The position numbers and the translations under genes were made by a program. From Anaerolineae bacterium (GTDB taxonomy: Bacteria > Chloroflexota > Anaerolineae > UBA4142 > SHND01): a stretch of DNA of 52,415 nucleotides. Position 1 is the first letter of the stretch. Every line of letters starts with the position of its first letter. Shown piece by piece: positions 4,099 through 44,610 of this stretch. Location of the stretch: contig JAJTXZ010000029.1 in NCBI GenBank assembly GCA_021463195.1, positions 1 through 52,415 on the forward strand, given 5' to 3'. The notes beneath the pieces are model-generated. The model was given only the letters and a program-made list of their open reading frames with translations. It ran no database searches and was not told the DNA's origin.

Positions 4099-4353
4099 TT
4101 AACCGCCCGCAATCGGGGGCCACAACGCCACTTGGTCGTCCTCACGCAAAATATATTCGCCGTCGCGCGCGATGCCATTCACCAACGCAATCGCCACAAT
4201 CCCCGACGGCAAGTTCAATTCCTCAAACAAGCGCGCGAGCGTCAAATCTTTTGGCAGCGTACACGCAAAACTCGTGCCGATTGGAACCTCCGGTTTGTAA
4301 CGGCGCAGCCCGGCGTAGAGTTTGACGTGGATGGTCAACTGACCACTCCCCAC
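4099..4353 (-). CDS. MoaD/ThiS-family ubiquitin-like sulfur carrier
   Basis: An 84-residue beta-grasp protein ending in the diagnostic Gly-Gly (PPIAGG), the residue that is adenylated and thiocarboxylated in MoaD/ThiS carriers. The start is a GTG with GGAAG a few bases upstream and overlaps the end of the aldehyde oxidoreductase gene by 19 bases; a TTG at 4338 that overlaps the oxidoreductase stop as TTGA is an alternative. Tight coupling to a tungsten oxidoreductase suggests it supplies dithiolene sulfur for the tungstopterin cofactor, a common pairing; this is inference. No MoaE, MoeB or other cofactor genes are nearby. Confidence 0.8.
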   Translation of the reverse strand: MGSGQLTIHVKLYAGLRRYKPEVPIGTSFACTLPKDLTLARLFEELNLPSGIVAIALVNGIARDGEYILREDDQVALWPPIAGG

Positions 4354-6164
4354 AAATCTTCCAACCCCAACTCGTCCAATTTTTCGCGCGTGGGCACGCC
4401 GCGTTCGTCCCAGCCGCGCAGCTGATAGTACGTTTGCAAATGGTCTTGCAATTCCGCGCGACTGCCCGCGCGCGGTCCGCCGGGGACGGGTTCGTGCATG
4501 CGGTCGGGGAGTTTGTCGTCGGCGGCAGTGAGACCCGCGCGCAAATTAAAAAGTTTTTCCAGATTCCAGATGCGGTCGCCTTGCGCGATGGATTTGTCAA
4601 AGGTGAAATCAATCCCCGTCGCGGGCGCCATCATCGAAACGATTTCGCGGTGCGTGATGGCGAATTTGCTGAACAAGCAGATGCCCGTCGAGTCCACGAA
4701 CGCGGTGGAGTTTTGAAACGGACGGCGCACGAGTTCTTCTTTGCCTTCCAAAGTTTCGGGCGGCACATATTTCGGAATGCCGTACAATTCCGCCGCGACG
4801 GTGTTGCCGCGCACATGACACGCGCCGCGATTCGACGTGGCATAATGCAGCGCCATGCCTTGAAAGACGCGCGGGCTGTACGCCGCCATCTCCAATTTTT
4901 TCACGCCCATAAAAAGTTCGGGATGTCCGTAATGTTCCGCGAGCCGATAACTGCCGTCCGCCATCAGCGCGCCAAATTCGCCGTCGCGTTCGCCCATCAT
5001 GTAGACCGCGCGCAGCATCGCGTCGTGGTCGCCGAAACGCAATGGAAAACCGATGTCGCTTTCGGGAACGTAACCGCTTTCAAACAATTCCATCGCGCAC
5101 GCGACGGTGGAACCCGCCGACATTGCGTCGAGTCCGTAATCGCCGCAGAGGTAATGCGCTTTGGCAATCGCGTCGAGATTCGAGACGCCGCACAGCGCGC
5201 CGAACGACCACGTCGTTTCGTATTCGGGACCTTCGCCGCGTCCTTTGTACGGGCCCTCTTTTACTTCGCTCACACGCGTGCAAGCAATCGGACACGCAAA
5301 GCACGCGCGATTTTTCAACAAAATTTGTTCGCTAATCGCCTCGCCGCTCGTCGCCGCCGCGCCCTGAAATACTTCTTCCAAAAAATTGCGCGTCGGATAC
5401 GCGCCCATTTCGTTGATGAGGTTCACGAGGTTCGCCGTGCCATACGCGCGGAAACTGCCGAACGAAACGGGGTCGTTGACGATTTTTTTCAACGTGTCAA
5501 GCGCGGCGTACCAAAATCCTTCCGCGTCCGCGAGTTGAATCGTTCCCGTGCCGCGCACCGCAATCGCTTTCAAATTTTTTGAACCCATCACCGCGCCGAC
5601 GCCCGAACGCGCGGCGAGGCGCGCGCGGTCATTCACCACGCCGGACAGCAGCGATAACTTTTCGCCGCCGGGTCCGATGCACGCGACTTTGGCGTGCGCG
5701 CTCGTTTCATTGCGAACCGCCGCGTCGGTTTCTTCGGGCGTCATGCCCCACAAATGCGCGGCGGAGCGAAATTCAACTTGGCTGTCGTGAATGTAGAGAT
5801 ACGTCGGCGCACTCGCTTTGCCTTCAAGGATGATAATGTCATAGCCCGCGAATTTCATTTCGGGTCCAAAAAAGCCGCCCGAATTGGAACACGCAATCGT
5901 CCCCGTCAACGGCGCTTTGCACACGACGACGTAGCGCGATGCCGCCACCGCGCCCGTTCCCGTCAACGGTCCCGTGCCGAACATTAATTTATTTTCGGGA
6001 CTGAGCGCGTCGGTCGCGGGGTCCATTTCGCGGTACAGCAAATACGAAGTCAGCCCGCGTCCGCCGACAAATTTTTCCGCGAGCGACAAATCCAACTCTT
6101 CACGCGCGATGCGCTGTCGCGTTAAATCAATGCGTAGAATCGTGCCAGTGTAGCCGTGATACAT
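4335..6164 (-). CDS. aor: Aldehyde:ferredoxin oxidoreductase (tungsten AOR family)
   Basis: The 609-residue protein has the full length and landmarks of the AOR family: N-terminal GYTGTILRIDL; GGRGLTSYLL near 34-43; the pterin-binding NSGGFFG near 94-100; GSKNLKAIAV near 194; the cluster-ligating CFACPIAC at 288-295 (C288, C291, C295) with a fourth cysteine in STGICLF near 495. Family members oxidise aldehydes to acids and pass electrons to ferredoxin from a bis-tungstopterin and one [4Fe-4S] cluster. It is co-transcribed with a MoaD-like carrier. The usual small polyferredoxin partner is not adjacent, but a 16-cysteine polyferredoxin domain is fused to an amine dehydrogenase at 9363-11084. 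Substrate is unknown; aromatic aldehydes are plausible given the aromatic cluster in the same window. Confidence 0.9.
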   Translation of the reverse strand: MYHGYTGTILRIDLTRQRIAREELDLSLAEKFVGGRGLTSYLLYREMDPATDALSPENKLMFGTGPLTGTGAVAASRYVVVCKAPLTGTIACSNSGGFFGPEMKFAGYDIIILEGKASAPTYLYIHDSQVEFRSAAHLWGMTPEETDAAVRNETSAHAKVACIGPGGEKLSLLSGVVNDRARLAARSGVGAVMGSKNLKAIAVRGTGTIQLADAEGFWYAALDTLKKIVNDPVSFGSFRAYGTANLVNLINEMGAYPTRNFLEEVFQGAAATSGEAISEQILLKNRACFACPIACTRVSEVKEGPYKGRGEGPEYETTWSFGALCGVSNLDAIAKAHYLCGDYGLDAMSAGSTVACAMELFESGYVPESDIGFPLRFGDHDAMLRAVYMMGERDGEFGALMADGSYRLAEHYGHPELFMGVKKLEMAAYSPRVFQGMALHYATSNRGACHVRGNTVAAELYGIPKYVPPETLEGKEELVRRPFQNSTAFVDSTGICLFSKFAITHREIVSMMAPATGIDFTFDKSIAQGDRIWNLEKLFNLRAGLTAADDKLPDRMHEPVPGGPRAGSRAELQDHLQTYYQLRGWDERGVPTREKLDELGLEDLWGVVS

Positions 6165-9362: not shown

Positions 9363-11084
9363 CTATTTCAACCCCTCCTCCAAATACCCCACATTCGCTT
9401 CCGCATTCTCTTTTATCCGCGCCATCACATCTTCGCCAAACGCGCGGAAACGAATCGCGCCCGTCGGGCAATACTGCGCGCACGCGGGATCGCCGTCGCA
9501 CAAGTCGCATTTGATGACGACATTTTTATCTTCGGAAAAAGTGATGCCGCCGTAGGGGCACGCGGGGACGCACAACATACACGCGGTGCAATTTTCGTCC
9601 ACCACGCGAATCGCGCCGCTCGCGCCGTCCGGCACCAACGCATCAAACATGCACGCGTGCATGCAATGCTGTTCGGGACAGTGAATGCATGGAATCGGCG
9701 TAAAGTGATGGTCGTCAATGTACGCTACCTTGATGCGGATTTGCGTATTGCGCGCGAGATGATTGTGGTGAATCGAACACGCCATCTCGCACATCCGGCA
9801 GCCCGTGCAAAGTTCGGGATTGATGTACAAAAGCGGCTCGCCGACTTGCGCTTCCATTTCTTGTTCGGGCGCAGCAATCTCAATCGGCGTACCGTGTCCG
9901 TTGCCCGAATGTTGTGTCGTTTCCGTCGCGAGCATCGCTTCGAATGAACCGCTCGGCGTCCATTTCGTTTGCAGCCACGCATCAAAACGATTGCGGCGGA
10001 ACGCGGCGAACGCGTCCGGTTTTTCGCCCGACGCAATCCATTCCGCGAGATAACGTCCCACAATCGGACCCAACGCGAAACCGTGTCCGCAAAAGCCCGT
10101 CGCCGCCAAAACATTTTCGTTCAAGCGGTCAATGATGGGAATGCCGTCCGGCGTCGAAGGGTCGAGACCGCCCCACGTCCGCACCAAATTTACGCGCCCC
10201 AAATCGGGAATGAGTTGGACGAGATGCTCCGCCGCGAGCCGCACATTTTTTTCCGTCGTCGCCTCGCTTTCGGATTGCTGCACCAAGCCGCCGCCGAAAT
10301 GCACGCTGCCGTGACGCGTCTGCCGAAAAAACAAATCCGCCGCCGCGACGCCAAACATGTACGGAAACATTGGCGGCAGCGCTTCGGTGACGAGCGACTC
10401 GTAGCGCATGTTCGCCAGCGGCAAATCCACGCCGAAATTCAAACACAACGCGCGCGTGCCTGCGCCCGCCGCGATGAGAACTTGACGCGCATCAAAAATT
10501 CCGCGCGTCGTTTCAATCTGCGCGCCGCCCGCGTCATTTTGCCGAATGTGCTGCACCGCGCAGTTGGTAAAAATTTGCGCGCCCAATTTGCGCGCGGCAT
10601 TCGCAAACCCCGTCACGAGTTTCAACGGATTCGCGTGTCCGTCGGTTGGACAAAAACTCGCGCCCAACACGCTCTCGCGGCGCAATGACGGCACGAGTTC
10701 GCACGTCTCTTGCTGTCCAATCCAGCGCACGTCGAGTCCATACGACTGCTGCCGCGTTACGTCCACCTGCATCGGGCGAAGGTGGTCAACGCTTTCGACG
10801 AGCCGCAAATTGCCGCGCTGTGTGTATTCAATGTCAACGCCCAATTCATCCGCCAGCGTCGGAAAGAGCGCGACGGTTTCATTCGCCAAACGCAATTCCG
10901 CCGACGCGCGCGCTGACTGTCGCACGCCGCCGCCCGAACGTCCCGACGCGCCCGCGCCAATTCCCGCGCGTTCGAGCAAAATCACGTCCGCGCCGCGTTT
11001 CGCCAAATAGTACGCCGTCGCGCAGCCGATAATGCCGCCGCCGACGATGATTACATCCGCGTTTTTATGTCCCACTCGCAACAT
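9363..11084 (-). CDS. FAD-dependent amine/amino-acid dehydrogenase fused to polyferredoxin
   Basis: A 573-residue two-part protein. Residues 1 to about 390 are a DAO-family flavoprotein: dinucleotide-binding VIIVGGGIIGCATAYYL near 11-27, ERAGIGAGASGRSGG near 38-52, and a C-terminal ATGFCGHGFALGP typical of glycine/sarcosine oxidase and HcnC-like subunits. Residues 418-573 hold sixteen cysteines in four CxxCxxCxxxC or CxxC-x(4,5)-CxxxC groups, the pattern of a four-cluster [4Fe-4S] electron carrier of the HycB/AorA type. The start at 11084 is chosen because the fold begins there; an upstream frame adds 37 unlikely residues. Fusion implies electrons from substrate oxidation go to a low-potential carrier rather than to oxygen. 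HcnA- and HcnB-like subunits at 15.4-17.2 kb are likely partners, and the AOR at 4.3-6.2 kb a possible user of the ferredoxin part. Confidence 0.85.
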   Translation of the reverse strand: MLRVGHKNADVIIVGGGIIGCATAYYLAKRGADVILLERAGIGAGASGRSGGGVRQSARASAELRLANETVALFPTLADELGVDIEYTQRGNLRLVESVDHLRPMQVDVTRQQSYGLDVRWIGQQETCELVPSLRRESVLGASFCPTDGHANPLKLVTGFANAARKLGAQIFTNCAVQHIRQNDAGGAQIETTRGIFDARQVLIAAGAGTRALCLNFGVDLPLANMRYESLVTEALPPMFPYMFGVAAADLFFRQTRHGSVHFGGGLVQQSESEATTEKNVRLAAEHLVQLIPDLGRVNLVRTWGGLDPSTPDGIPIIDRLNENVLAATGFCGHGFALGPIVGRYLAEWIASGEKPDAFAAFRRNRFDAWLQTKWTPSGSFEAMLATETTQHSGNGHGTPIEIAAPEQEMEAQVGEPLLYINPELCTGCRMCEMACSIHHNHLARNTQIRIKVAYIDDHHFTPIPCIHCPEQHCMHACMFDALVPDGASGAIRVVDENCTACMLCVPACPYGGITFSEDKNVVIKCDLCDGDPACAQYCPTGAIRFRAFGEDVMARIKENAEANVGYLEEGLK

Positions 11085-11196
11085 CACTCCATCAGTTGGG
11101 AAATGAGTTGTACTCGTTCCCCTGCTGGTATCAAAGTTGAACTTTGAAGGCGTATCGGCGCACGAGTCCAACTCGTGCGCCAACAACAGACGCATG

Positions 11197-12078
11197 TTAC
11201 AGAGGTTTCCGCGCTTTGAACAAGTACCGATTCAAACTAAAGAAATACTCGCCCTGTTCACCTTGCGCGCGCAATTCGTTTGCCCATGTCTCGGCTTGCT
11301 CGCGTGTAATGCCCCGCCGACCGCTGACGAACGCGACGATCAAATCAATCATCCCATTGCTGTATGTGTTGCGGTCAAAAACAGGATTGAACAGCGGAAT
11401 GATTTGGGGGTCTCCACCTTAAAACCCAACGCGTCGTAATTTGGATGTCAGCGTGCGGGGCAAATACGGATCGGTGAGATGCTCGGCCCACACCGTGAGG
11501 ATATGATTCATGCGCTCACGATTCGTCGTGTGCCACACGATCGCGTCCCAATCGGTCTCCAAAATGACCGCGCGTCCACCCGGTTTCAGTACGCGATAGA
11601 GCTCGGCGAGCGCAGCATCCACGGCGGGGACATATTCATAGACCTGCGTCGAGACACCGACATCGAAATGATCGTTCGGAAAATCGAGATGGACTGCATC
11701 CGCCAAGCGAAATTCGACTTGAGGTTGATGCGCGCAATACTCTCGCGCCATCGCCAACAAGGGTTCGCTGGCATCCACGCCGCAGCAGATTCTGATGTGC
11801 CGCCCAAGCGCGGTGTGGTGTCGGGTGTGCGTCACGAATTTGGGCAGGGCATCGCTCGCGCTGGATGGCGGATGGAGTGCATCCGAGTAATCCAGCAGGT
11901 TCGGCGTGGATGCGAATGAACTACATTCGACAAATCCACGTTGATAAATTCGCTGTGGGTGAGACCGACGGTGGTGTGGAGAAAGATGAACGGGATTTTT
12001 GTGAACACTATTCGTCGGTGTCTGATTCTGTGGGTGCGCCTTCACCGCTGTACCACCAGTCAAAAGTTGCCACGGCAT
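11197..12078 (-). pseudogene. Decayed class I SAM-dependent methyltransferase
   Basis: The readable part (from about 11900 down) resembles the methyltransferase-11 family: LDYSDAL, then GVDASEPLLAMAREYC, HFDVGVSTQVYEYV and LYRVLKPGGRAVILETDWD. Two lesions are visible. The glycine-rich SAM-binding motif I expected between LDYSDA and GVDASE is missing, replaced by a short His/Arg-rich join. An in-frame TAA at 11419-11421 interrupts the gene, yet the same frame continues for 73 codons (ending at 11197) with a normal family C-terminus including IIPLFNPVFD and GEYFFSLNRYL. The N-terminal 60 codons are not recognisable and overlap the end of the SpoIID gene by 71 bases. Internal deletion plus a stop fits a pseudogene; a sequencing error could explain the stop but not the missing motif. 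Confidence 0.7.
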
Positions 12079-13687
12079 TTACAGTCTCTTCAAAATAACG
12101 CACTTGCAATTTGTAGGTGCCGGTACATTTGTATCGCCAAGTAGAACTTGGGCGAAATGTTCCAATTGTCCACTCATTGATTAGTACGGATTGATTTGCG
12201 CCATTTGCATCCGCGAGCACCGCATACATTCCATCATCCATCCGTCCTTGGAACGTGACATCGCCACAACCGTTCACATAGATATAACCCTCCCAAATCA
12301 CAGAAAACCGATTTGAGGGAATTTCTGTGACGCCTGGTTCATACCCACTGTGAGTGTCCTGAGGAGAAGCATTCACCCAATCGAATTTTGTAGGGGTGTC
12401 AGGGCGAATCATGACCGAATCTGACGGAATGCTGCCTGTCGAGCCGACCTTGTACCTGTAATAGCGCCCAATCATTCCTACGCTGCGATTGATGCTCAAA
12501 CGCGCCACGGCATCATATCCAGCATCGTAATAATCCAATCGAATGCTGTGTGTCCCTTGTGTCAAAGCGACCCCAACACTCTGTAACTGGGCGCTAGAGT
12601 TGGTCCATTGGTCCAAGATGAGATTACCGTCAATATAGAGCCGCATCCCATCATCGCGCAAAGTATAAAAGGTGTACCAATCGGTAGCATCTACGGTCAG
12701 GTTCGTTTCCCATCTGACACAAAAGTTGTCTGCCGGGGCTCCCGGACGATTCGGAGGAGTACCTGCCCAATAGTAATTTATGCTGCGTGTAGAGCCCTGC
12801 CAAAGCACGGTAGAACTACACGTGCGACTACTCGGATTATATGTATAAAATTTCTCGGAATAGTTGGCGTAATAATCGTCTTGGACCCATGTGCCTGTAT
12901 AGTACTTGCGAAGTACATCGGCATAACTTGCCTTCTTCCGGTCGGCTTTGCGCCAGCTATGCGCAGAGATCTGACCGAAACCGGGTCCGCTTATGTCCAC
13001 CGCATATTGGTTGTCCACACTGGTGAGAAATTCATAGTTTGTCACTACGACGCCATTATAGAAACAAGGTGCACGCGTTTCGTTTCCACTATTCCAAGAA
13101 CATGTTGGCTCCCCAACATCGTTCCGAAATTCTGCGTCGATAAGCTTGCCATCATATGGCGGAGTCAACAAAAAATCATCCCAAGTAAGATACATGCCCT
13201 TTGTTACCGCAGATTGTTTCTTGAATTTATTAACGACCGTTGTACTGGCTGGAAAATAGGGATCGAACTGGGCATCATTACCACCATCGTATACTCCACG
13301 ACGGCCATCGGGAAGCAGATTTTTCGTGCACCAATATGCTCCCCAAGTGCGGGCAGCAATGGCTTGTGCCTTGATGACTTGGGCGTCCCAGCCATTGCCA
13401 GCATAAGGACCGCTGGGAACTACATCATGCAGCTCGCCTAAAGCAACACCCCAAGCATAATCCTCCATTGGAATTATCTGATCCCGACTAGTGCCCTGGG
13501 GCCAGTGACTATAATTGTCTCTAAGACGCACATTTATTGTATCGGGTAGAAATTTGCACTGCGCTGATGTCCCACTCAGGGCTGATGTTCCGTTCAAAGT
13601 TTCAGCATGTAATGATCCAGTCATTATCATTGCCAAACTGGCTGTGAATATGATTGCCACGATTAGTATCAAAGTTTTGTGATTCAT
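12008..13687 (-). CDS. SpoIID/LytB-domain protein with two PA14-like domains
   Basis: A 559-residue secreted protein. A signal peptide with a hydrophobic core covers about 6-27. A SpoIID/LytB region follows (about 45-265), marked by MEDYAWGVALGELH, VIKAQAIAARTWGAY and ISAHSWRKADRKKASY; the family includes peptidoglycan lytic transglycosylases. The last 290 residues contain two PA14-like beta-sandwich domains (about 270-400 and 405-545), recognised by DDGMRLYIDG and DDGMYAVLAD, which usually bind carbohydrate. SpoIID homologues are widespread outside spore formers, so this is no evidence for sporulation. It is followed 32 bases upstream by the PD40 gene in the same direction. A wall-modifying enzyme with sugar-binding modules is the likely reading. 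Confidence 0.8.
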   Translation of the reverse strand: MNHKTLILIVAIIFTASLAMIMTGSLHAETLNGTSALSGTSAQCKFLPDTINVRLRDNYSHWPQGTSRDQIIPMEDYAWGVALGELHDVVPSGPYAGNGWDAQVIKAQAIAARTWGAYWCTKNLLPDGRRGVYDGGNDAQFDPYFPASTTVVNKFKKQSAVTKGMYLTWDDFLLTPPYDGKLIDAEFRNDVGEPTCSWNSGNETRAPCFYNGVVVTNYEFLTSVDNQYAVDISGPGFGQISAHSWRKADRKKASYADVLRKYYTGTWVQDDYYANYSEKFYTYNPSSRTCSSTVLWQGSTRSINYYWAGTPPNRPGAPADNFCVRWETNLTVDATDWYTFYTLRDDGMRLYIDGNLILDQWTNSSAQLQSVGVALTQGTHSIRLDYYDAGYDAVARLSINRSVGMIGRYYRYKVGSTGSIPSDSVMIRPDTPTKFDWVNASPQDTHSGYEPGVTEIPSNRFSVIWEGYIYVNGCGDVTFQGRMDDGMYAVLADANGANQSVLINEWTIGTFRPSSTWRYKCTGTYKLQVRYFEETVNAVATFDWWYSGEGAPTESDTDE

Positions 13688-13719
13688 TGATCTCCTCGCA
13701 CAAACTTTTAGGATGCCAT

Positions 13720-15117
13720 TTACTTGACGGTAACAGGGACGGCAGTAAATTCGCCCTCCATGCTATTTACGATGATTTGATCGCCTTGCGGACTCCAGCT
13801 TGCTGAAAAGGGAAACGGTTCACGCGCAATTTCCGAAATCAGGCGACGCCCCGAGCCATCCCGATTTATCTCCCAAACCCCCGATACATCGCGATACAAG
13901 AATGATTTTTCATCTGGAGACCAACCTTGAAAAATTGGATCACCGCGTCCACTTGGAGGCAGTTCAATGATTCTCTTTTCATCTGTTATGCTCGCAATTT
14001 TGATAATACGGTTAGCCGCTGAAGTATAGACCAGCAACTCCCCATCACGTGAAATTGCCCAATGCTGATCGTTAATCCCGTCAGATATGTGGCGAATTAA
14101 TTTGGTTTCCCCATTCCGCTGAAACAAGTAAATATCTTTTTGCGATGCGAGGGCAAAAAGCCCAAGCTCTGATTGAGCGGTTACATAGCGGAGAGGCACA
14201 GCAGACTTGAACTGTGCCAGCTGGGTTTCATCAAAAAGCGCTTTTGTCGCAGAATCAATCGTATCGAATACGAGCGGCTGGTTGTCGTAATAGAATATTT
14301 CATGCTCGCTCAGCCAATCCGGCAGAGGGAAAAGCCCTCCGAAAAGAGTAGCTATCTCTGTGACTTGTAACGTTTCGACATTCACCATACGGATATGTAA
14401 AGGAAGCATCCTGTCTTCGTATGCAAGATAAGCAATCCATTTGCCGTCAGGAGACCATCTGGGCATAAAACCACGTACGAGAGGTTTTGCTGTTTTACCA
14501 TCGGGGGAGACAAGTGTAATCCACGTAACCTCCCAAGCAGGATTTCCCTTTTCATCGTTTATCCAATCCCCATCCCATTGACTAATCGCAAGATATTTTC
14601 CATCTGGCGACCAATCCACTGGACCAATGGGGTCATTGAGGTTTTCACCAAACGAAACTGTATCCCCAAATGATAAATTCTCGACCCAGAATCCAATACG
14701 CTTTTCTTGGGGAAGCGAGGGTAGTGAGGTAGAGGTTGGCCATGGAGTGGGTGACTCGGCTATTGCAGTGCCCGCTATTTCAGGCGTGCCCAAATCAGGC
14801 GTGGGCGTACGCGGGTCGCGTGTAAAAGTAGGCAGAGTTCTGGTGGTTTGGGTTGAAGGAGTCTCGGCATTTTGAACCGTATTGACAGTCGGAGTGCGAC
14901 GCGCGCGGCGGGTTTGCCGTGCGGTAATTGTGTTTTGCGCAGCAGCCGTTGCCGTCTGCGCCTGTCGCGTTTCGCGTGCAGGTCGCGTGTTTGCCGCAGC
15001 CGTAAGCGAAACCGACGGCAAATTATTCCAAACTGTCCACACCAAAACCGCCAACCCGAACATCGCCGCCAGGACAGCGACCAGCGTCAGGGATTCACGG
15101 GATTTCAATAGTTTCAT
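13720..15117 (-). CDS. Membrane-anchored PD40/WD40-like propeller protein
   Basis: A 465-residue protein with one N-terminal transmembrane segment (about 11-33), a long Thr/Ala/Arg/Pro-rich linker (about 40-130, with repeats of the type TARQTRRARRTPT) and a C-terminal propeller of TolB/PD40 motifs such as DWSPDGKYLAISQWD, RWSPDGKWIAYLAY and SWSPQGDQIIVNS. The architecture parallels the lipoprotein at 6231-7652 but with an uncleaved anchor. It lies in the same lower-GC tract as the SpoIID-PA14 gene and probably shares its transcript. Cargo or ligand is not evident. Confidence 0.8.
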   Translation of the reverse strand: MKLLKSRESLTLVAVLAAMFGLAVLVWTVWNNLPSVSLTAAANTRPARETRQAQTATAAAQNTITARQTRRARRTPTVNTVQNAETPSTQTTRTLPTFTRDPRTPTPDLGTPEIAGTAIAESPTPWPTSTSLPSLPQEKRIGFWVENLSFGDTVSFGENLNDPIGPVDWSPDGKYLAISQWDGDWINDEKGNPAWEVTWITLVSPDGKTAKPLVRGFMPRWSPDGKWIAYLAYEDRMLPLHIRMVNVETLQVTEIATLFGGLFPLPDWLSEHEIFYYDNQPLVFDTIDSATKALFDETQLAQFKSAVPLRYVTAQSELGLFALASQKDIYLFQRNGETKLIRHISDGINDQHWAISRDGELLVYTSAANRIIKIASITDEKRIIELPPSGRGDPIFQGWSPDEKSFLYRDVSGVWEINRDGSGRRLISEIAREPFPFSASWSPQGDQIIVNSMEGEFTAVPVTVK

Positions 15118-15359: not shown

Positions 15360-15399
15360 CTCGAATCTCCAATCTCCAATCTCCAATCTCCAATCTCTA
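15358..15399. repeat. AATCTCC heptamer tandem array
   Basis: About five tandem copies of a 7-base unit AATCTCC lie between the glxC remnant and the stop of the HcnB-like gene. The same heptamer family, with GACTGGA/GATTGGA variants on the other strand, recurs inside two coding sequences at 31611-31660 and 39188-39222. Confidence 0.85.
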
Positions 15400-16845
15400 T
15401 TTCACCCTCGCCGCGCCGTACCCCACATGGTCTTCCATCGCCGTTCCCGTCGCGTGCGGTTCCGCGCTTGCGCCGACGACGCCGAGCGGCACGGGTTTGA
15501 CGGGAATGCGCGCAGTGAACGCGCCAACGGATTCGACGCTCGTTCCGGTCTCGCTTGCGATGAGTTGCGCGGCGATGGGTCCGCAGATGCGTCCCTGACA
15601 GCGCCCCATGCCGCAGCGATTCCACGCTTTCAACGCGTTCAGATTTTGCGCGCCCGCGCGCGCCGCGTCACGAATTTCACCCGCGCGAATTTCTTCACAG
15701 CGACACACCAACACATCGTCCGCGATGCTTTCATAAACTCCGCGCTTGACCGCAAACATGCTGCTCAAGGAATCGAACGCGGCGCGCGCCTTTTGCCATT
15801 CTTTCAAAACATCGTGTCCATTCGACTGCGCCGCATAACCAAGTTGCCGCGCCGCCGCCGCGCCCGCGATTTTTCCTTCGAGCAATGCGACCTCGACGCC
15901 GCCGATGCCGCGCACTTCGCCCGCCGCAAAAATGCCGCGCGCGGTCGTTTCCAGGTCGTCGTTCGTTTTCGTCGCGAACGCGTCAAAATGCGTGTCAAAA
16001 AATTGTTCGCAGCCCGCGAGGCGCGCGAGTTCCGTCGCAGGGACGAATCCGTAATTCATGCAAATTGTGTCCGCCGCAATCGTTTCCTCACTGCCCGCAA
16101 TCGGACGCCCGTTGCCGTCCACTTTGACAATCACCGCGCCGCGCGTTTCGGTTTCGCCCACCGCGCGCGTGACGACACAGCCGTATTTCATTGGCACGCC
16201 CGCGTCGAGCAATTTTTTTTGCTGCGCCATGCCCTGCCCGATTTTGCCCCATTGTCCAAAAAGTTTTAGCCCGCCGCCAAAAAATTCCGTCCGCGAATGT
16301 AATTCCACGAGCGCGGCGATGTCTGCGCCCGCGTCGAGCAACTGCACCGCCGCGAGTTGCAGCAACGGTCCCGTGCCGCACAACAAAATTTTTTGCCCGA
16401 CGAGCAGCCCTTGTCCTTTCAACATCAACTGCGCCGCGCCAACCGTCATCACGCCGGGCAGCGTCCATCCCGCGAACGGCACAACGCGCTCGTACGCGCC
16501 GCTCGCAAGGATGATGCGTTTCGCTTGGACGCGCGTCGCGCCTTCGGGCGCGTACAAATCGAGTATGCCGTCGGCGGTGATGTTCCAGACCAGCGTATTG
16601 GCGCAAACGGTGATTTTTGGATTGTTCAAACCCGCGATGAGTTCGCGGCCATGCTGGATATTTTCGGACAGAGAAGAGGCAACATCATTCGCGTGGAATG
16701 AAGAGGGAGGTTGTTTGTAATATTGTCCGCCGGGACGCGGATTTTCGTCAAGCAATAAAACGCGCGCGCCCGCGTTCGCCGCAGTGACAGCCGCAGCGAT
16801 TCCGGCGGGACCTGCGCCAATGACTGCGATTTCGGTTGTGTTCAT
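15397..16845 (-). CDS. HcnB-like FAD/[2Fe-2S] dehydrogenase subunit
   Basis: The 482-residue protein carries an N-terminal FAD-binding Rossmann motif (IAVIGAGPAGIAAAV, 7-21), a PGGQYY stretch near 38, a central NAD(P)-type fold (KILLCGTGPLLQLAA) and a C-terminal BFD-like [2Fe-2S] domain with VCRCEEI near 376 and CGMGRCQGRICG near 406-417. This order is that of HcnB, opine dehydrogenase subunit A and sarcosine-oxidase alpha relatives, which relay electrons from an amine-oxidising DAO subunit. It sits 59 bases downstream of the HcnA-like gene. The expected HcnC-like partner is not adjacent; the DAO-polyferredoxin at 9363-11084 is the best candidate. About 55 extra residues follow the iron-sulfur domain. 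Confidence 0.85.
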   Translation of the reverse strand: MNTTEIAVIGAGPAGIAAAVTAANAGARVLLLDENPRPGGQYYKQPPSSFHANDVASSLSENIQHGRELIAGLNNPKITVCANTLVWNITADGILDLYAPEGATRVQAKRIILASGAYERVVPFAGWTLPGVMTVGAAQLMLKGQGLLVGQKILLCGTGPLLQLAAVQLLDAGADIAALVELHSRTEFFGGGLKLFGQWGKIGQGMAQQKKLLDAGVPMKYGCVVTRAVGETETRGAVIVKVDGNGRPIAGSEETIAADTICMNYGFVPATELARLAGCEQFFDTHFDAFATKTNDDLETTARGIFAAGEVRGIGGVEVALLEGKIAGAAAARQLGYAAQSNGHDVLKEWQKARAAFDSLSSMFAVKRGVYESIADDVLVCRCEEIRAGEIRDAARAGAQNLNALKAWNRCGMGRCQGRICGPIAAQLIASETGTSVESVGAFTARIPVKPVPLGVVGASAEPHATGTAMEDHVGYGAARVK

Positions 16846-16904: not shown

Positions 16905-17195
16905 TCACACATCACGCACGCGCACCTCGCATCCCGCGCGCGCTTCGGTCATGCACGCGCGTTGATTGGGCAAGCCGTCCACAGTGACGAGGCAATCAAA
17001 ACAGATGCCCATCCCGCAGAAAATTCCGCGCGGTGAAGCGCTTGCGTCAGTTGCGCGAAACGCGCGATATCCTGCCGCCGCCAAAACGGTCGCGATGCTT
17101 TCGCCGGGGTACGCTTCAATCGGTTGTCCGTTCACCGTGATGGAAAATGCTTGCCCGCGTTCGATCTGAGAAATGCGCTGGACTTGAATTGTCAT
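16905..17195 (-). CDS. HcnA-like [2Fe-2S] subunit
   Basis: A 96-residue plant-type ferredoxin-fold protein with cysteines C60, C65, C68 and C81 in the pattern CGMGICFDC ... RAC, which ligates one [2Fe-2S] cluster. Stand-alone proteins of this kind are the small subunit of hydrogen cyanide synthase, opine dehydrogenase and related amine dehydrogenases, and correspond to the N-terminus of sarcosine oxidase alpha. It is directly upstream of the HcnB-like gene and downstream of GlxD, so it belongs to the nitrogen-metabolism transcript. Confidence 0.85.
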   Translation of the reverse strand: MTIQVQRISQIERGQAFSITVNGQPIEAYPGESIATVLAAAGYRAFRATDASASPRGIFCGMGICFDCLVTVDGLPNQRACMTEARAGCEVRVRDV

Positions 17196-17372: not shown

Positions 17373-18779
17373 TCATCCAAAAAAGCCAAACGCTTCGCCA
17401 AAGGTGTAATCGCTGCCGAGAAATGGAATGCCTGTCATCGCGCACGCTTCGAGCGAGACGGTACGCAAATCTTCGCGTTCGAGGTTGTGAATATTGCTCT
17501 TGCCGCACGCTTTGGCGAGGATAACCGCTTCGTTCGTCAGCGCGGTGAGATAATTGGCGACGCGCTGCGCGTTGAGTTTGATATTAAAACGCGCGCGCAA
17601 TTCTTCTTTTTGCGTGCCGATGCCAAATTCGCAAGCGCCCTTTTCGCATTGCAAACAAACCGTGCAGCCCATCGCGACGAGCGCGCCTGTGCCGACATAT
17701 ACCGCGTCCGCACCGAGCGCAAGCGCTTTTGCCACATCCGCGCCATCGCGAATTCCGCCCGAAACAATCAGCGACACTTCATCTTTCAGTCCCATGTCTT
17801 CGAGCGCACGCGTCGCCTGCACCACCGCCGCGAGCGTTGGCATCCCAAGATGGTCAATCGCGATTTTCGGACCCGCGCCCGTGCCGCCCTGCATCCCATC
17901 AATCACCACGCCGTCCACGCCGACCTTTGCCGCGATTTTCACATCTTCATAGACGCGTCCCGCGCCCACTTTGAGAAAAATCGGTTTTTCGTAATTGGTG
18001 ATTTCGCGCAGCTCTTGCAATTTCACCACGAGGTCGTCCGCGCCAAAAATATCGCCGTGACGCGGATGCGACGCGAGGTCAATGCCCGGCGGCAAACCGC
18101 GAAACGCCGCGACTTCGGCGGACATTTTTTCCGCCATCAAATGCCCCGATAAACCCGGTTTCGCGCCAATGCCAAAAACGAGTTCCACCACATCGGCGAG
18201 TTCGAGATTGCGGAGCGAAAAACCGAAACGGCTCGGCGTGACTTGCACGATTTGACGATACGAATGTTCGCGCTCTTCGGGCAACAATCCGCCTTCGCCG
18301 TTGTTCATTGCCGTGCCGACGCGGCGGCTGCCCATCGCGAGCGCGATTTTTGATTCTTTGCTGATGGCGCCGAACGACATAGGCGCAATCATTATCGGCG
18401 TTTCAATGACGAGCGGTTTTTTGGCATAGCGCGCGCCGAGAACCGTGCGCGTGATTGCGGTTTCGCGGTACGTGTCAACCGGCATCCGCGACAAACCCGC
18501 CGAAAGAAAAACGAGGTCGTCAAAGGTCGGGAGTTTGCGCGTGGTGCCGCAGCCGCGCACGATGTGTTTGCCCGTGCGCGCTTTTTCTTGAATCTCGTGC
18601 ACTGTCGCGGAATTCCAGCCGCCGCCGGTCAAACGCGCGCCCGTCGGTCCGCCGCCGCTGCCGCCCGAGAGAGCTGTCGTCGCGCTCTCGATTTCATTTG
18701 GAAAGCGCAGCGCTTTGGTCGGACAGACGGGAATACATTTGGCGCAATCGGTGCAGAGATTGGTATCGCAGATAACCAT
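17373..18779 (-). CDS. glxD: Ferredoxin-type FMN glutamate synthase domain protein (GlxD/MgsC-like)
   Basis: A 468-residue protein with an N-terminal ferredoxin motif (C9, C12, C15, C19) followed by the FMN-binding TIM barrel of glutamate synthase large subunit: APMSFGAISKESK, LPEEREHSYRQIVQ, GAKPGLSGHLM, VGVDGVVIDGMQGGTGAGP. A C-terminal cysteine patch (CTVCLQCEKGACEFGIGTQ) supplies the [3Fe-4S] cluster. Together with GlxB and GlxC it reconstitutes in three polypeptides what GltB does in one. In rhizobia glxBCD sits with glnT, and in methylotrophs the homologous MgsABC makes N-methylglutamate from methylamine and glutamate. It lies 57 bases downstream of GlxC. Confidence 0.85.
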   Translation of the reverse strand: MVICDTNLCTDCAKCIPVCPTKALRFPNEIESATTALSGGSGGGPTGARLTGGGWNSATVHEIQEKARTGKHIVRGCGTTRKLPTFDDLVFLSAGLSRMPVDTYRETAITRTVLGARYAKKPLVIETPIMIAPMSFGAISKESKIALAMGSRRVGTAMNNGEGGLLPEEREHSYRQIVQVTPSRFGFSLRNLELADVVELVFGIGAKPGLSGHLMAEKMSAEVAAFRGLPPGIDLASHPRHGDIFGADDLVVKLQELREITNYEKPIFLKVGAGRVYEDVKIAAKVGVDGVVIDGMQGGTGAGPKIAIDHLGMPTLAAVVQATRALEDMGLKDEVSLIVSGGIRDGADVAKALALGADAVYVGTGALVAMGCTVCLQCEKGACEFGIGTQKEELRARFNIKLNAQRVANYLTALTNEAVILAKACGKSNIHNLEREDLRTVSLEACAMTGIPFLGSDYTFGEAFGFFG

Positions 18780-18836: not shown

Positions 18837-19547
18837 TCATAAATGTTCTAACGCGCGCTCGCGCGATTCAAACTGCGGTTTGAAAATGTGAAAGGTCTGT
18901 TTGCCGCCGCGCGGGACGAGGCAGACAAATTCGCGCGGGTCGGCTTGGATGTTGTTTTCGCCAAAGAGCCATTCCAACGCTTCGTAATCGGCGGGTTCGG
19001 GCGCGCGCACTTGGACATTGCTGCCGGTGCCCGCCGCTGCGCCGCGCCGATAACATATCACGCCGCCGTACATGGATTCTCCGGTATTCGTTCCCACATT
19101 GCCCAAAAGCACGATGCGTCCACCGAGCATCTGCTGTCCGGTCAACATGCCCACGTCGCCGCAGACGACGACAGTTCCGCCTTTGAGGCCGTAACCGACG
19201 CGACTGCCTGCCGACCCGCGCACGAGAACGGTGCCGCCAATCATCGAAGGCGCGAGATTGCTGCCCGCGTTGTTTTGCACAATCAATTTGCCGCCGAGCA
19301 TATTGTCCGCCGCATACCAGCCGACATTGCCCGTCACAAGAACGTTGGGCCCATTCATAAAGCCGCAGCAGTAAAAGCCCGCGCTGCCTTGCACGACGAT
19401 ATCGAGCGCGCCGTGAACGTTGACCGCGATGTTGTGACGCGCGTGCGTGTTGCGTAAAACGACTTGTTCGCCGCCGCCCACCAACGCTTGCAAGCGCGCG
19501 TTGAGGGCGCGTTCATCGAGTTGTTCGAGGTCTAATTCTTGGACCAT
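18837..19547 (-). CDS. glxC: GXGXG-domain glutamate synthase subunit (GlxC/MgsB-like)
   Basis: The 236-residue protein is a right-handed beta-helix with repeated Gly-Gly turns (NVGWYAADNMLGGKL, NNAGSNLAPSMIGGTVLVRG, GDVGMLTGQQMLGGRIVLLG), the GXGXG domain found at the C-terminus of GltB and in FwdC. It bridges amidotransferase and synthase sites in the complex. Its start overlaps the end of the amidotransferase gene by 16 bases, so translation is coupled. A 74-base diverged copy of its middle lies at 15286-15359. Confidence 0.85.
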   Translation of the reverse strand: MVQELDLEQLDERALNARLQALVGGGEQVVLRNTHARHNIAVNVHGALDIVVQGSAGFYCCGFMNGPNVLVTGNVGWYAADNMLGGKLIVQNNAGSNLAPSMIGGTVLVRGSAGSRVGYGLKGGTVVVCGDVGMLTGQQMLGGRIVLLGNVGTNTGESMYGGVICYRRGAAAGTGSNVQVRAPEPADYEALEWLFGENNIQADPREFVCLVPRGGKQTFHIFKPQFESRERALEHL

Positions 19548-20440
19548 ACGCGTACTTCTCCCGGCGCCATTTCCGCCGCGTAAATGTCGGGGTCAACGGC
19601 TTCAAAGGAAACTTGTTCCGAACCGAGCAAAAGCAAACCATTGCGCTGATAATACAAAATCGGTTTGATGCCCAAACGATCGCGCACCGCGCCAATTCCC
19701 GAATCCGTCGCCGCGAGATAACTGAACACGCCGTCGAAATCGTCGAGCGACGCGGTGAGCGCTTCTTGAAACGTCTTGTCCTCGCGCGTCATTTTGTAAG
19801 CGAGATAATGCGCGATGATTTCCGAATCGTTGAACGTTTTGCAGCGCACGCCTTTGGCTTCCAACTTGCGGCGCAGTTTGAAATAATTGGTGAGCTGTCC
19901 ATTATGCACGACAGTGATTTCAGGCATGAGGTCGGAACTGAACGGATGCGCGAAATTCAAGTTGTCAATGCTTTCGGTGGCGAGCCGCGTATGTCCGAGC
20001 GCGTGCTGTCCTTTGACCGCGCGCAAGCCGCCAAATTCCGCGAGCGCGTCCGCTGTGCCGACATCTTTGATGACTTGCATGCAATCGCTCAAACTGTGAA
20101 CGCAGAGCGACGGCTGCGCGTTGATTTCGCGATAGAGCCGTGATGCGTCGCGCGGTTCGCATTGGAGCGTGAGCCGCGCCATCGTATAGGGCGAATTGGT
20201 ACGATACAAATCACATTCGCCCAATTCGGCGAATTCATTCACGATGCGCCGCAGCGTTGGCAAGTCTTCGGTGGCGTTGAATAATGACACCCGCGCCGTG
20301 AGATAGTCGCGCGGCTGACCAAGATACAACGCCGTGCCTGCCGCGTCGCAACCGCGATGCCGAATTTCGTACAGCATTTTGTACAACGCGTCGCCCAAAT
20401 TGATTTCGTCACGAACCATGATTCCCGCAATACCGCACAT
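19532..20440 (-). CDS. glxB: Class II glutamine amidotransferase (GlxB/MgsA-like)
   Basis: A 302-residue Ntn-hydrolase glutaminase. Cys2 (MCGIAGI) becomes the N-terminal nucleophile after Met removal; GHTRLAT near 150 and HNGQLTNYFKLR near 180 are the glutamine-binding elements. It releases ammonia from glutamine, or in MgsA-type complexes contributes to N-methylglutamate synthesis. It has no synthase domain of its own and is first in the overlapping GlxB-GlxC pair, 76 bases after the permease. Confidence 0.88.
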   Translation of the reverse strand: MCGIAGIMVRDEINLGDALYKMLYEIRHRGCDAAGTALYLGQPRDYLTARVSLFNATEDLPTLRRIVNEFAELGECDLYRTNSPYTMARLTLQCEPRDASRLYREINAQPSLCVHSLSDCMQVIKDVGTADALAEFGGLRAVKGQHALGHTRLATESIDNLNFAHPFSSDLMPEITVVHNGQLTNYFKLRRKLEAKGVRCKTFNDSEIIAHYLAYKMTREDKTFQEALTASLDDFDGVFSYLAATDSGIGAVRDRLGIKPILYYQRNGLLLLGSEQVSFEAVDPDIYAAEMAPGEVRVWSKN

Positions 20441-22082: not shown

Positions 22083-23438
22083 TCACAAATGAAACGCGTA
22101 CTCGTTAAATTCCCAATCGGTTACGTGCGCGCGGAAACGCTGCGACTCGAGGCGTTTCACCGCGCCAAATGCTTGCACAAAAGAGGGTCCCAATATTTCG
22201 CACAACGCGCGGTCGCGTTCCAATTCATCAACGGCTTGATGCAGATACTGCGGCAGCACGGGCGTGCGCTGCGGATCGGCGTTCGAGTATGCGTCGCCTT
22301 CAAATGGTTTATCCGGTTCCAGTTGATTGACGATGCCGTCCAAGCCCGCCGCGAGCGCGGCGGCAAAGGCGAGGTACGGATTCGCCACACCGTCGGGCGT
22401 GCGATTTTCGACGCGTGTGCCGCCTTTGCGTTCGGGTGGAATGCGAACGTAACACGTGCGATTGTCATAGCCCCATACGACATAGTACGGCGCGAACGCG
22501 CCCGGCACATAGCGTTTGTACGAATTGACCGTCGGCGCGAATACGGCGGTCATGCCGCACGCGTGCGCGAGTTGACCCGCGATGAAATGACGCATCAGGT
22601 CGGACATTTCGTGGTCGCCTTTTGGATCGTAAAAAATATTTTCGCGCGTCACGGGGTCGGCGATGCTCAAGTGCATGTGATAGCCGCTGCCGCCCAGGTC
22701 CGAACGCGGCTTTGCCATGAACGTCGCCATCAAACCATTTTGATACGCAATCTCTTTGACCGCCTGCTTGTAGAAAAAAGTGCGGTCGGCGACATCCAAC
22801 GCTTCGCCGTGGTCGAGATTGATCTCGAATTGTCCGGGAAAAAATTCGTGACTCACCGCGAGCGAACGCAGTCCCATCTCTTCCACCGCGTCGCAAATTT
22901 TGCGCGTGATGCCGTCAGGGTCTACCGTCCCGTTCCACGTATACACCATGCTTGGTTTATCCGAGTAGGTTTGCCATGAACCGTTATCGCGCTTGAGTAG
23001 ATAAAATTCCAATTCGCTGCCCACAATCGGGAGCAAGTCGCGTTTTTCGTATTCGGCGATGATGCGTTTCAGGATATTGCGCGGCGCCATTTCAATCGGC
23101 TCGTCTTGATAGTAGAGGTCGGCAATGACGGCGGCGGTGTGCGGCTCCCACGGCAAAATGGTAAAAGTGCCGAGGTCGAGTCTGGCGGTCATGTCCGCGT
23201 AACCGATTTCTTCGGCGGTCCCGGTGCCGGACGCGGGATTGCCCGCGAGGTCGAGCGCAAAAGTGGGAAAGGCGAATTGAACGCCATGTTCGACGACATG
23301 CGGAAATTGTCGCGCGGGCACCGCTTTGCAGCGCGCGACGCCGTGAAAATCAGAGAATTGAATTTTGACGGTATGAATGTGCGCCGCATCAATTTGGCGC
23401 AAAACTGTTTCGACAAGCGCCGAGTCTTTGACAGACAT
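22083..23438 (-). CDS. Glutamine synthetase-like ligase (GlnT / gamma-glutamylamide synthetase type)
   Basis: A 451-residue member of the glutamine synthetase superfamily with the metal- and glutamate-binding VGSELEFYLL, FFPGQFEINL, GGSGYHMHLS, APTVNSYKRYVPG, and NRTCYVRIPP plus VENRTPDGVANPYLAFAAAL. The ATG at 23438 follows AAAGGAGGTGA; an upstream in-frame ATG at 23468 precedes that site and is rejected. It is shorter and more diverged at the N-terminus than GlnA. Co-occurrence with GlxBCD and an amine permease points to ligation of glutamate with an amine (as in GlnT or gamma-glutamylmethylamide synthetase) rather than bulk glutamine synthesis. This is inference from context. Confidence 0.8.
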   Translation of the reverse strand: MSVKDSALVETVLRQIDAAHIHTVKIQFSDFHGVARCKAVPARQFPHVVEHGVQFAFPTFALDLAGNPASGTGTAEEIGYADMTARLDLGTFTILPWEPHTAAVIADLYYQDEPIEMAPRNILKRIIAEYEKRDLLPIVGSELEFYLLKRDNGSWQTYSDKPSMVYTWNGTVDPDGITRKICDAVEEMGLRSLAVSHEFFPGQFEINLDHGEALDVADRTFFYKQAVKEIAYQNGLMATFMAKPRSDLGGSGYHMHLSIADPVTRENIFYDPKGDHEMSDLMRHFIAGQLAHACGMTAVFAPTVNSYKRYVPGAFAPYYVVWGYDNRTCYVRIPPERKGGTRVENRTPDGVANPYLAFAAALAAGLDGIVNQLEPDKPFEGDAYSNADPQRTPVLPQYLHQAVDELERDRALCEILGPSFVQAFGAVKRLESQRFRAHVTDWEFNEYAFHL

Positions 23439-23739
23439 TCGTTCACCTCCTTTGAAAATGCACAACAAATTTGTCGTGCCAACTATTCATTTCCATTCGC
23501 TGTGGGTGAGCTGCTGGCTCATGGAAAACTCGAATGAGAATCCGAACAAGAAAATTATAAGAAACGAATCTCCCAAATTTCTCCCATGTCACGCAGCCCG
23601 TAGAGACGCAAATTACAAATTTGTGGTACGAACTTCCCAAGATTTTTTCCCAAACGATTCGGGCAACTTCCTCTATGTCCCCACTTCCGCGCGTGTTAAA
23701 AACATAACATGAGAATTGTACAAACGCGGGAGGGGGAAA
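23439..23739. promoter_or_regulatory. Divergent intergenic region with paired ACAAATTTGT palindromes
   Basis: This 301-base gap separates the divergently transcribed ligase and cytochrome c genes and must contain both promoters. The palindrome ACAAATTTGT occurs at 23465-23474 and 23615-23624, each inside a near-identical 20-base direct repeat (ACAAATTTGTnGTnCnAACT), 150 bases apart. These could be operator sites; no clear -35/-10 pair is asserted. Confidence 0.4.
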
Positions 23740-30688: not shown

Positions 30689-31939
30689 TCACGCATACGT
30701 TTCCAGAAAATCGGTAAAACGTTGCATGAATTGGTCACCCGCCGACGCGTCGAGCAAGCGATGATCAAAGGTGAGACCGAGATACACCATCGGACGAATC
30801 GCGATTGCGTCGTCAACGACAATGACGCGCTTTTGAATCGCGCCGACGCCGAGAATCGCCGTCGTGCCGAACGGAATGATCGGCGTGCCAAAGAGCGAAC
30901 CGAAAATGCCATAGTTGGTGATGGTGAACGTCGCGCCTTGCACTTCTTCGGGCGCGAGTTTTTTCGCGCGCGCCCGCGCCGCCAAATCGTTCACCCCGCG
31001 CGCGAGCGCGAGCAAACTTTTTTCTTCGGCGTTTTTGATGACCGGCACAATCAAGCCATCTTCCAGCGCGACCGCGATGCCGAGATTCACCGCGCGCTGC
31101 ATCACAATGCCTTGTTCCGTATAACGCGCGTTGACGAATGGGGTCGCTTGAATCGCCGCGATGGCTGCCTGCGCGAAATACGCGGTGTAGGTGAGTTTGA
31201 CGCCCTGTTTTGAAAATTCCGCTTGCTGCGCGCGCATGTGCGCGAGGACGCGCGTCATGTCCGCTTCGTGAATCGAGGTCACGTGCGGAATCGTTTGTTT
31301 CGAACGCGTCATGTGTTCCGCAATCGCGCGGCGCATTGTCGTCAACGGCACGATTTCTGATTCGCCATCCGTCACAGGCGGAACGATTGTGCGCGCGGGC
31401 GCGGCGACTGTTTCCGCTTGGCGCGGCGCTTGCGTTTGAATTTTTTCCGGCGCGGCGATGGGCGCGCGTCGTTTCAAAAAAGCATCCAAGTCTTTTTTGC
31501 TGACGCGTCCGCCTTCGCCCGTGCCTTGAATCGCCGCGAGTTCCGCGCTGCTGATATTGTGTTCCGCCATCATGCGCGCGACGACGGGGGTGAGGCGATT
31601 GCGAGAGGAGGGAGATTCGAGATTCGAGACTGGAGATTGGAGACTGGAGACTGGAGACTGATTACTTGCTACTGTCGCCTGTTGACTGCCGTCTGCCGTC
31701 TGGCTTTCCCCAATCACTCCCACAACCGTTCCCGCGTTCACCGTCGTTCCTTCGCCAACGAGAATTTGCAGCAGCGTGCCTGACGCGGGCGCGGGAATTT
31801 CGGTCGTCACTTTGTCGGTGATGACTTCGATGATGGGTTCGTACAGTTTCACGTCATCGCCAACCTGTTTGAGCCATTTACCAACGGTGCCTTCGATTAC
31901 ACTTTCGCCCAGTTGGGGCATTACAACGTTCGTCGTCAT
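30689..31939 (-). CDS. Dihydrolipoamide acyltransferase (2-oxo acid dehydrogenase E2)
   Basis: The 416-residue protein has one lipoyl domain with the lipoylated Lys at 43 (EVITDKVTTEIP), a peripheral subunit-binding domain (about 115-150, VARMMAEHNISSAELAAIQGTG) and a catalytic domain ending in TFDHRLLDASAGDQF with active-site His393 and Asp397; the usual DG after that Asp is DA here. The linker between lipoyl and E3-binding domains is made of the heptamer repeat (31611-31660), giving SPVSSLQSPVSNLESP. No E1 or E3 genes are in the window, so it is an orphan or acts with distant partners. Acyl group unknown; branched-chain or pyruvate complexes are equally possible. Confidence 0.88.
   Translation of the reverse strand: MTTNVVMPQLGESVIEGTVGKWLKQVGDDVKLYEPIIEVITDKVTTEIPAPASGTLLQILVGEGTTVNAGTVVGVIGESQTADGSQQATVASNQSPVSSLQSPVSNLESPSSRNRLTPVVARMMAEHNISSAELAAIQGTGEGGRVSKKDLDAFLKRRAPIAAPEKIQTQAPRQAETVAAPARTIVPPVTDGESEIVPLTTMRRAIAEHMTRSKQTIPHVTSIHEADMTRVLAHMRAQQAEFSKQGVKLTYTAYFAQAAIAAIQATPFVNARYTEQGIVMQRAVNLGIAVALEDGLIVPVIKNAEEKSLLALARGVNDLAARARAKKLAPEEVQGATFTITNYGIFGSLFGTPIIPFGTTAILGVGAIQKRVIVVDDAIAIRPMVYLGLTFDHRLLDASAGDQFMQRFTDFLETYA
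31611..31660. repeat. Heptamer array within the E2 linker
   Basis: Tandem 7-base units GATTCGA, GACTGGA and GATTGGA run through the coding sequence for the flexible linker. Read on the coding strand they give repeated S-P-V-S-x-L-Q residues. The same unit is intergenic at 15358-15399 and in-frame at 39188-39222. Confidence 0.8.
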
Positions 31940-35235: not shown

Positions 35236-35892
<657 letters not shown>

Positions 35893-35947
35893 TGCATATA
35901 TCCTACGGCAAGTGTAGCATAAAACAGGCCTTATTTTGCAAGGAGGT

Positions 35948-36092
35948 GGCTAACGGTGAGCGTTACTGGTTGGCGGGCGGGCGTGGACAAAACTCCGAGA
36001 GCGGGATTCTGTTCGGGCGTGGAAAATGCGGCGAACGTTGTTCGCAAAAAATGCCGCAGAATCCCCACCGTCCAGTGCACGCTTTGTTGGCT
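35948..36092 (-). repeat. attC-like recombination site
   Basis: About 145 bases, left end GGCTAACGGTGAGCGTTACT, right end CAGTGCACGCTTTGTTGGCT; the ends are imperfectly complementary, as required for the folded bottom-strand substrate. GTTAGCC on the minus strand marks the start of the nucleotidyltransferase cassette. Confidence 0.75.
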
Positions 36093-36097
36093 TGCCT

Positions 36098-44601: not shown

Positions 44602-44610
44602 CGAGTATCT

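Follow-up and report, generated by a model that had tools for sequence, protein, structure and literature searches.

Several described systems come close to the locus analyzed here. In the dehydrogenases HcnABC and OdhABC, D-hydroxyproline dehydrogenase and the archaeal L-proline dehydrogenase (PDB 1y56), a gamma subunit with a [2Fe-2S] cluster, an alpha subunit with FAD and a BFD domain and a beta subunit of the DAO family are encoded together. Opine dehydrogenase contains two FAD, one FMN and a [2Fe-2S] cluster (PMC4575208). In the aldehyde oxidoreductase (AOR) complex AorABC of Aromatoleum aromaticum, the clusters of AorA link AorB to the flavin, with all steps under 15 Å, and in the A. aromaticum subclade filaments form by means of a C-terminal helix of AorA (PMC10413684). 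According to the 2026 classification of tungsten oxidoreductases, these enzymes form five classes and 92 clades, with roles defined in only five (PMC13328260). For the N-methylglutamate pathway (gmaS-mgsABC-mgdABCD), MgsABC was proposed to move the methylamine of a gamma-glutamylamide onto 2-oxoglutarate (PMC6237917). Glutamine synthetase (GS) needs both Asp50' and the glutamate of the Glu-flap, which are absent in GmaS, and Asp177 is strictly conserved in GmaS (PMC7948447).

The window, i.e., the whole analyzed stretch of 52,415 bp from an Anaerolineae bacterium (contig JAJTXZ010000029.1), contains the following features, given from the ligase gene to the AOR gene:

22083..23468, minus strand: putative glutamine-synthetase-like gamma-glutamyl-amine ligase without the GS Asp50' and Glu-flap residues
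20517..22025, minus strand: APC-family amino acid/amine permease, conserved in the Chloroflexi operons
19532..20440, minus strand: MgsA-like class II glutamine amidotransferase (GATase), N-terminal MCGIAG, 35% identity to MgsA-type proteins
18837..19547, minus strand: MgsB-like GXGXG subunit, 30-32% identity to MgsB-type proteins
17373..18779, minus strand: MgsC-like FMN glutamate-synthase subunit, 48-50% identity to MgsC of Rhizobium etli and Sphingobium plasmids
16905..17195, minus strand: HcnA/OdhC-like gamma subunit, Fer2_4 [2Fe-2S] domain, C-X4-C-X2-C-X12-C
15397..16845, minus strand: HcnB/OdhA/SoxA-like alpha subunit (482 aa), FAD domain and BFD-like [2Fe-2S] domain, C381-X-C383...C416-X4-C421
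15286..15360, minus strand: 75-bp relic of the GXGXG gene with 91% identity to 19171-19245, bordering on insertion 1
11419..15117, minus strand: insertion 1, with genes for a PD40 repeat protein, a SpoIID/PA14 protein and a methyltransferase fragment; absent from the intact operon L018
9972..11084, minus strand: DAO domain of the fusion protein (residues 1-371), with the FAD motif GxGxxG (G15-G20) and the FMN motif R302-T-W304
9849..9971, minus strand: linker (residues 372-412), of low confidence in the model and read as disordered, varying in length among relatives
9435..9848, minus strand: four-[4Fe-4S] domain (residues 413-550), by sequence an AOR small subunit (AorA/WorS), best PDB match AorA (8c0z_C)
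9378..9434, minus strand: C-terminal helix (residues 551-569) predicted by the model, at the place where AorA has its filament-forming helix
6231..9302, minus strand: insertion 2, with genes for a PD40 repeat protein and two unknown proteins, GC3 0.44-0.45
4335..6164, minus strand: predicted tungsten AOR large subunit (WorL/AorB), AFOR_N E = 4e-78, AFOR_C E = 1e-136, best PDB matches 9mqx_D, Pf AOR and 8c0z_A

A dehydrogenase subunit fused to a 16-cysteine domain

The fusion protein comprises 573 amino acids and is encoded on the minus strand at 9363..11084. The longest ORF at this locus is 9363..11195 (minus strand), and the ATG at 11084 was taken as start because it yields a product that aligns with the relatives. 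The ORF runs without interruption through a DAO/sarcosine-oxidase-like part, the linker, a 16-cysteine domain for four [4Fe-4S] clusters and the C-terminal helix. The Pfam family DAO (PF01266) matched residues 10-349 with E = 2.8e-78 and several Fer4 families matched residues 421-546. The C-terminal domain holds exactly 16 cysteines (426/429/432/436, 466/469/474/478, 499/502/505/509 and 526/529/535/539), which are all invariant in an alignment of the six fusion proteins. Five other genomes encode the same in-frame fusion (L018 to L022) with 58-72% identity, the highest value of 72% being that of L018; four are Chloroflexi-labelled MAGs and one is a Deltaproteobacteria-labelled MAG. A sequence-only reading of this DNA had proposed a DAO-family dehydrogenase joined in one frame to a 16-cysteine polyferredoxin and had named an assembly or frame artefact as the finding that would speak against it. 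The ORF, the Pfam matches, the cysteine count and the five relatives bear out the proposal, and an artefact is ruled out by the occurrence of the fusion in six MAGs.

Fold searches placed the DAO domain closest to the beta subunit of L-proline dehydrogenase (1y56_B), the beta subunit of sarcosine oxidase and glycine oxidase. The structure model used here was calculated from a 25-row alignment (pLDDT 82.7, pTM 0.68), an earlier model from six sequences having been unusable (pLDDT 39.9). Since the fold searches listed the DAO domain only, the assignment of the ferredoxin part rests on sequence and not on fold comparison. The linker is predicted to be disordered, and therefore the model does not set the distance between the clusters and FAD; the fusion might do no more than tether. 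Sequence similarity to AorA tails off at the predicted helix 551-569.

Genes for the two other subunits of an HcnABC-type trimer are located just upstream of the fusion; co-occurrence with HcnAB-like subunits had been suggested as a check. The gamma subunit sequence CGMGICFDCLVTVDGLPNQRAC within 16905-17195 fits the pattern C-X4-C-X2-C-X11~12-C (PMC4575208). The alpha subunit has GxGxxG at position 10 and a match to the BFD family; its cysteine pattern C-X-C-X32-C-X4-C has a longer gap than the quoted C-X-C-X15~20-C-X4-C (PMC4575208), and no tetrahydrofolate (GcvT) domain was found in this subunit. The DAO part of the fusion contains both GxGxxG and R-X-W, as does the beta subunit of opine dehydrogenase (PMC4575208). 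By these sequence features, the fusion protein is predicted to be the catalytic beta subunit of a dehydrogenase of the HcnABC/opine dehydrogenase type. The earlier label "glycine-oxidase-like" was apt as far as a DAO-family amine/imine dehydrogenase is concerned, but loose, as this domain is predicted to serve as beta subunit in a trimer of the HcnABC/opine/proline dehydrogenase type. In contrast to HcnABC, OdhABC and 1y56, the beta subunit here bears an AOR small subunit at its C-terminus and the genes are set in an operon with ligase, MgsABC-like and AOR genes.

The fusion was present in three of 396 genomes of the host's class. It appears to be rare, because a phylum-wide sample of 400 genomes revealed no further case; none of the viral contigs searched carried it. 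The closest unfused DAO proteins (53-56% identity) are encoded together with HcnA and HcnB in two more genomes of the class (L015 and L016), where they have no ferredoxin domain and no adjoining AOR gene. Neither genome gave a match to the GS-like ligase or MgsC at the thresholds used, whereas all six fusion genomes encode the GS-like ligase and an MgsC.

The fused domain as small subunit of an aldehyde oxidoreductase

The best PDB match of the ferredoxin domain was AorA of A. aromaticum (8c0z_C, E = 7e-35), followed by 9mqx_E and then by the WOR5 small subunits. Its four cysteine motifs align one to one with those of 8c0z_C at the same spacing. A ferredoxin of the HycB/FHL type was rejected, as HycB-type proteins matched more weakly and ranked after the AOR/WOR small subunits; of the "AorA/HycB kind" proposed at the outset, the AorA part was thus retained. 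A genome scan that did not use AOR yielded 13 stand-alone relatives of the domain. All 13 loci adjoin an AOR gene; at 12 of them the relative is encoded directly upstream of it, as is the case for aorA. The fusion gene itself directly precedes the AOR gene in all five relatives, and in the window insertion 2 separates the two.

The host genome encodes three AORs in all. An ortholog of the AOR from the window (E ≤ 1e-200) was present in exactly those three of the 396 class genomes that hold the fusion, so that the suggested co-occurrence with AOR was found both in gene order and in distribution. Trees placed the AORs partnering fusions in one clade (100/100) and the fused ferredoxin domains likewise (96/99); the small ferredoxin tree has many long branches and only its one-clade result was used. 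Judged by its sequence relationships, the fused domain is specifically an AOR small subunit (AorA/WorS). The position of all 13 unfused relatives and of the fusion in the five related genomes next to an AOR gene indicates that the AOR of the window does have a small subunit, namely the fused one. The sequence-only reading had described this AOR as lacking its small polyferredoxin partner, which is correct in that no separate gene for a small polyferredoxin adjoins it; the fused domain is the partner.

With AorA of AorABC (8c0z), the fused domain shares the four [4Fe-4S] clusters, the cysteine motifs and, in the five relatives, the gene position directly upstream of AOR; a C-terminal helix is predicted at the corresponding place. 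AorA, however, is a small protein of its own that passes electrons to the FAD subunit AorC. Its counterpart here forms the C-terminal part of an amine dehydrogenase subunit, and the operon showed no AorC. It also resembles the bifurcating class IV enzymes WorSLABC in that a larger module with flavin and Fe-S clusters is joined to WorL and WorS, but WorABC-type genes were not seen in it and the additional module is an amine dehydrogenase.

The operon and its ligase and synthase genes

At L018, nine contiguous and co-directional genes encode the GS-like ligase, the permease, the GATase, the GXGXG protein, the FMN glutamate-synthase domain protein, the Fer2_4 protein, the FAD/BFD protein, the DAO-AorA fusion and AOR. 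The window holds the same nine genes, split by two three-gene insertions of unrelated genes. GC3 is 0.44-0.47 for the inserted genes except for the methyltransferase (0.60), compared to 0.62-0.71 for the operon genes and 0.57-0.70 for most other genes of the window. A PD40 beta-propeller protein is encoded in each of the two interrupting blocks. The 75-bp GXGXG relic is a rearrangement scar. Tandem-like heptamer repeats (CAATCTC/GGAGATT type) are common to 15361-15397, 31611-31663 and 39188-39224. Elsewhere in the window, a gene island of very low GC3 (0.35-0.37; 35236-37889) includes genes for an NYN-domain protein and an EamA transporter, and 33480-34370 encodes a CTP-dependent (archaeal-type) riboflavin kinase domain fused to a PNPOx-like domain, here in a bacterium.

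The genes are found together as a block in two major groups, Chloroflexi and the Deltaproteobacteria-labelled MAG. At L022/L057, the set is the same except that an ABC transporter replaces the permease. In G742, G743 and G744, the operon is present in two halves, the first on one contig and the second on another, and the MgsABC-like set of G744 is of the more divergent type. Directly after the first GATase/GXGXG/GltS set, G743 has another, divergent one (L054, 9835-12727).

The identities of the MgsA-, MgsB- and MgsC-like proteins were measured against proteins encoded on R. etli p42e and Sphingobium pSH1. These reference clusters also hold glnT and soxBDAG-type genes, i.e., the known gene set of the N-methylglutamate pathway. 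At its N-terminus, the MgsC-like protein has an additional Fer4 motif, which lies beyond the region aligned with proteobacterial MgsC and may point to ferredoxin as electron donor. In all six operon ligases, the ammonium-binding Asp50' of GS is replaced and Phe occupies the position of the catalytic Glu-flap residue, and Ser, Ala, Cys or Asn is found at the position of GmaS Asp177. As the GS residues are absent, as in GmaS, and Asp177 is absent too, the enzyme is best read as a putative gamma-glutamyl-amine ligase.

The operon thus resembles the N-methylglutamate pathway in its ligase without GS catalytic residues, in its separate MgsA-, MgsB- and MgsC-like subunits and presumably in a DAO-family dehydrogenase that releases an aldehyde from an N-substituted glutamate. 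It differs in the missing Asp177 and in its dehydrogenase, which is of the HcnABC type and has neither SoxD nor SoxG nor a tetrahydrofolate domain; no SoxD or SoxG subunit is encoded in the operon. The aldehyde is disposed of via tetrahydrofolate in the proteobacterial pathway, a task that would fall to AOR here.

Proposed reaction sequence and alternative explanations

We propose, with a probability of roughly two in three, that the fusion protein is the hinge of a pathway for glutamate-borne amines, in which an AOR held on the fused domain oxidizes the released aldehyde. This proposal is based on sequence data, namely the fusion, the domain identities, the operon, its conservation in six genomes and the co-distribution with one AOR clade. 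The GS-like ligase would convert the amine to a gamma-glutamyl-alkylamide, from which the MgsABC-like synthase would transfer it onto 2-oxoglutarate, forming an N-alkylglutamate. The HcnA-HcnB-DAO trimer would oxidize the latter to glutamate and an aldehyde, which would be passed on locally and converted to the acid by AOR docked on the fused ferredoxin domain. As the clusters of AorA join AorB to a flavin, the fused domain would by analogy join AOR to the flavins of the trimer, tethering the last two enzymes and probably also wiring them. The low-potential electrons of AOR would then reach the flavins and [2Fe-2S] clusters of the trimer via the [4Fe-4S] chain and go on to a shared acceptor, and the C-terminal helix might allow filaments to form. 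The classification of tungsten oxidoreductases places the aldehyde/acid couple near -500 mV (PMC13328260); flow from AOR to the flavins would therefore be downhill, and the reverse is not expected. The sequence-only reading had inferred that an amine or imino acid is oxidized with low-potential carriers instead of oxygen. This part of it goes beyond the data, since electrons may run from AOR to the flavins rather than from the amine to ferredoxin and the host genome encodes a cytochrome oxidase.

The same genes and the same chemistry would also suit an arrangement in which the fused ferredoxin only passes amine electrons from the DAO flavin to soluble ferredoxin, AOR being a separate enzyme that is merely an operon neighbor. 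Dehydrogenases fused to their own electron acceptor are common, and the predicted flexibility of the linker agrees with such a role. We nevertheless consider it unlikely, because the domain belongs with AOR small subunits (13/13 relatives beside AOR), the fusion gene occupies in five genomes the aorA position immediately before AOR and the trimer already has its own exit route via FMN and [2Fe-2S]. Moreover, the potential of amine oxidation is generally too positive for the reduction of AOR-type [4Fe-4S] clusters, and the value near -500 mV given above for aldehyde/acid (PMC13328260) likewise argues against this arrangement.

Somewhat less probable still is a route like that of E. coli, which combines PuuA and PuuB (DAO family) with an aldehyde dehydrogenase: the ligase would glutamylate an amine or polyamine, the DAO protein would oxidize the gamma-glutamylated amine directly, and the GltS, GXGXG and GATase proteins would do something else. 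The Asp50'-loop region of the ligase does resemble that of PuuA, but each fusion genome examined has MgsA-, MgsB- and MgsC-like genes besides that of the ligase, with the three-gene split of the N-methylglutamate pathway, and the nearest solved relatives of the DAO domain use secondary amines such as proline and sarcosine. The bare Pfam names (Gln-synt_C, Glu_synthase, DAO, AFOR) would suggest ordinary GS/GOGAT ammonia assimilation beside a dehydrogenase degrading proline or another imino acid and an unrelated AOR. This is very improbable given that all six operon ligases lack Asp50' and have Phe for the Glu-flap residue, that the genes form the same block in two major groups and that the AOR clade was found only with the fusion.

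Regarding the substrate of the proposed glutamate-borne route, the genomic context gives conflicting hints. In the Deltaproteobacteria-labelled MAG, frmA and frmB (both above the NCBIfam cut-offs) are located upstream of the ligase gene, a hint at formaldehyde and so at methylamine. This hint is tempered by other ligase/MgsABC-like clusters in the same MAG, beside a TMAO demethylase gene. Its locus L058 (G745, C128) encodes a TMAO demethylase (above cut-off), an ammonium-transporter family protein and two ligase-GATase-GXGXG-GltS sets, suggesting a methylated-amine specialist. Methylamine was not accepted as a proven substrate, as the ligase lacks Asp177 of GmaS. AOR in methylotrophs was also discarded as a precedent, the AOR transcript of Methyloversatilis being higher on methanol, not on methylamine (PMC5023235). 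A hint at an aromatic amine comes from 38084-51750 of the window, which looks like a cluster for anaerobic phenol degradation, with genes for phenylphosphate carboxylase beta (TIGR02724, above cut-off), 4-hydroxybenzoyl-CoA reductase alpha/beta-like proteins, a PEP-synthase-type split dikinase and a PaaK-like ligase. In G743, parts of a similar cluster are found just upstream of the amine ligase gene, which is directly preceded by a PaaK-like ligase gene; no phenol-degradation cluster was seen in the flanks of the operon in G741.

No paper joining these parts was found in a literature search, most subscription journals and preprints being outside its scope. The sections of the tungsten oxidoreductase classification that were consulted describe no class with an amine dehydrogenase, and a term search of its text gave no sarcosine, amino-acid-oxidase or glutamate partner (PMC13328260). 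The data suggest one complex that carries out both steps of glutamate-based amine breakdown. Tentatively, and with less than even confidence, one may go further and consider a complex that converts N-alkylglutamate to glutamate and a carboxylic acid, passes the toxic aldehyde locally from the flavin to the tungsten site and merges both sets of electrons, which would make it a new class of tungsten oxidoreductase. If so, the strongly reducing electrons of the aldehyde could help to drive the amine step to an otherwise unreachable acceptor, and AorA-type filaments would possibly bear amine dehydrogenase and AOR side by side. On the proposed reading, the operon would give one group of tungsten oxidoreductases a concrete role, the disposal of an aldehyde freed from a glutamate-borne amine, and would provide uncultured Chloroflexi and a Deltaproteobacteria-labelled lineage with a route for N-alkylglutamate-type amine utilization without tetrahydrofolate.
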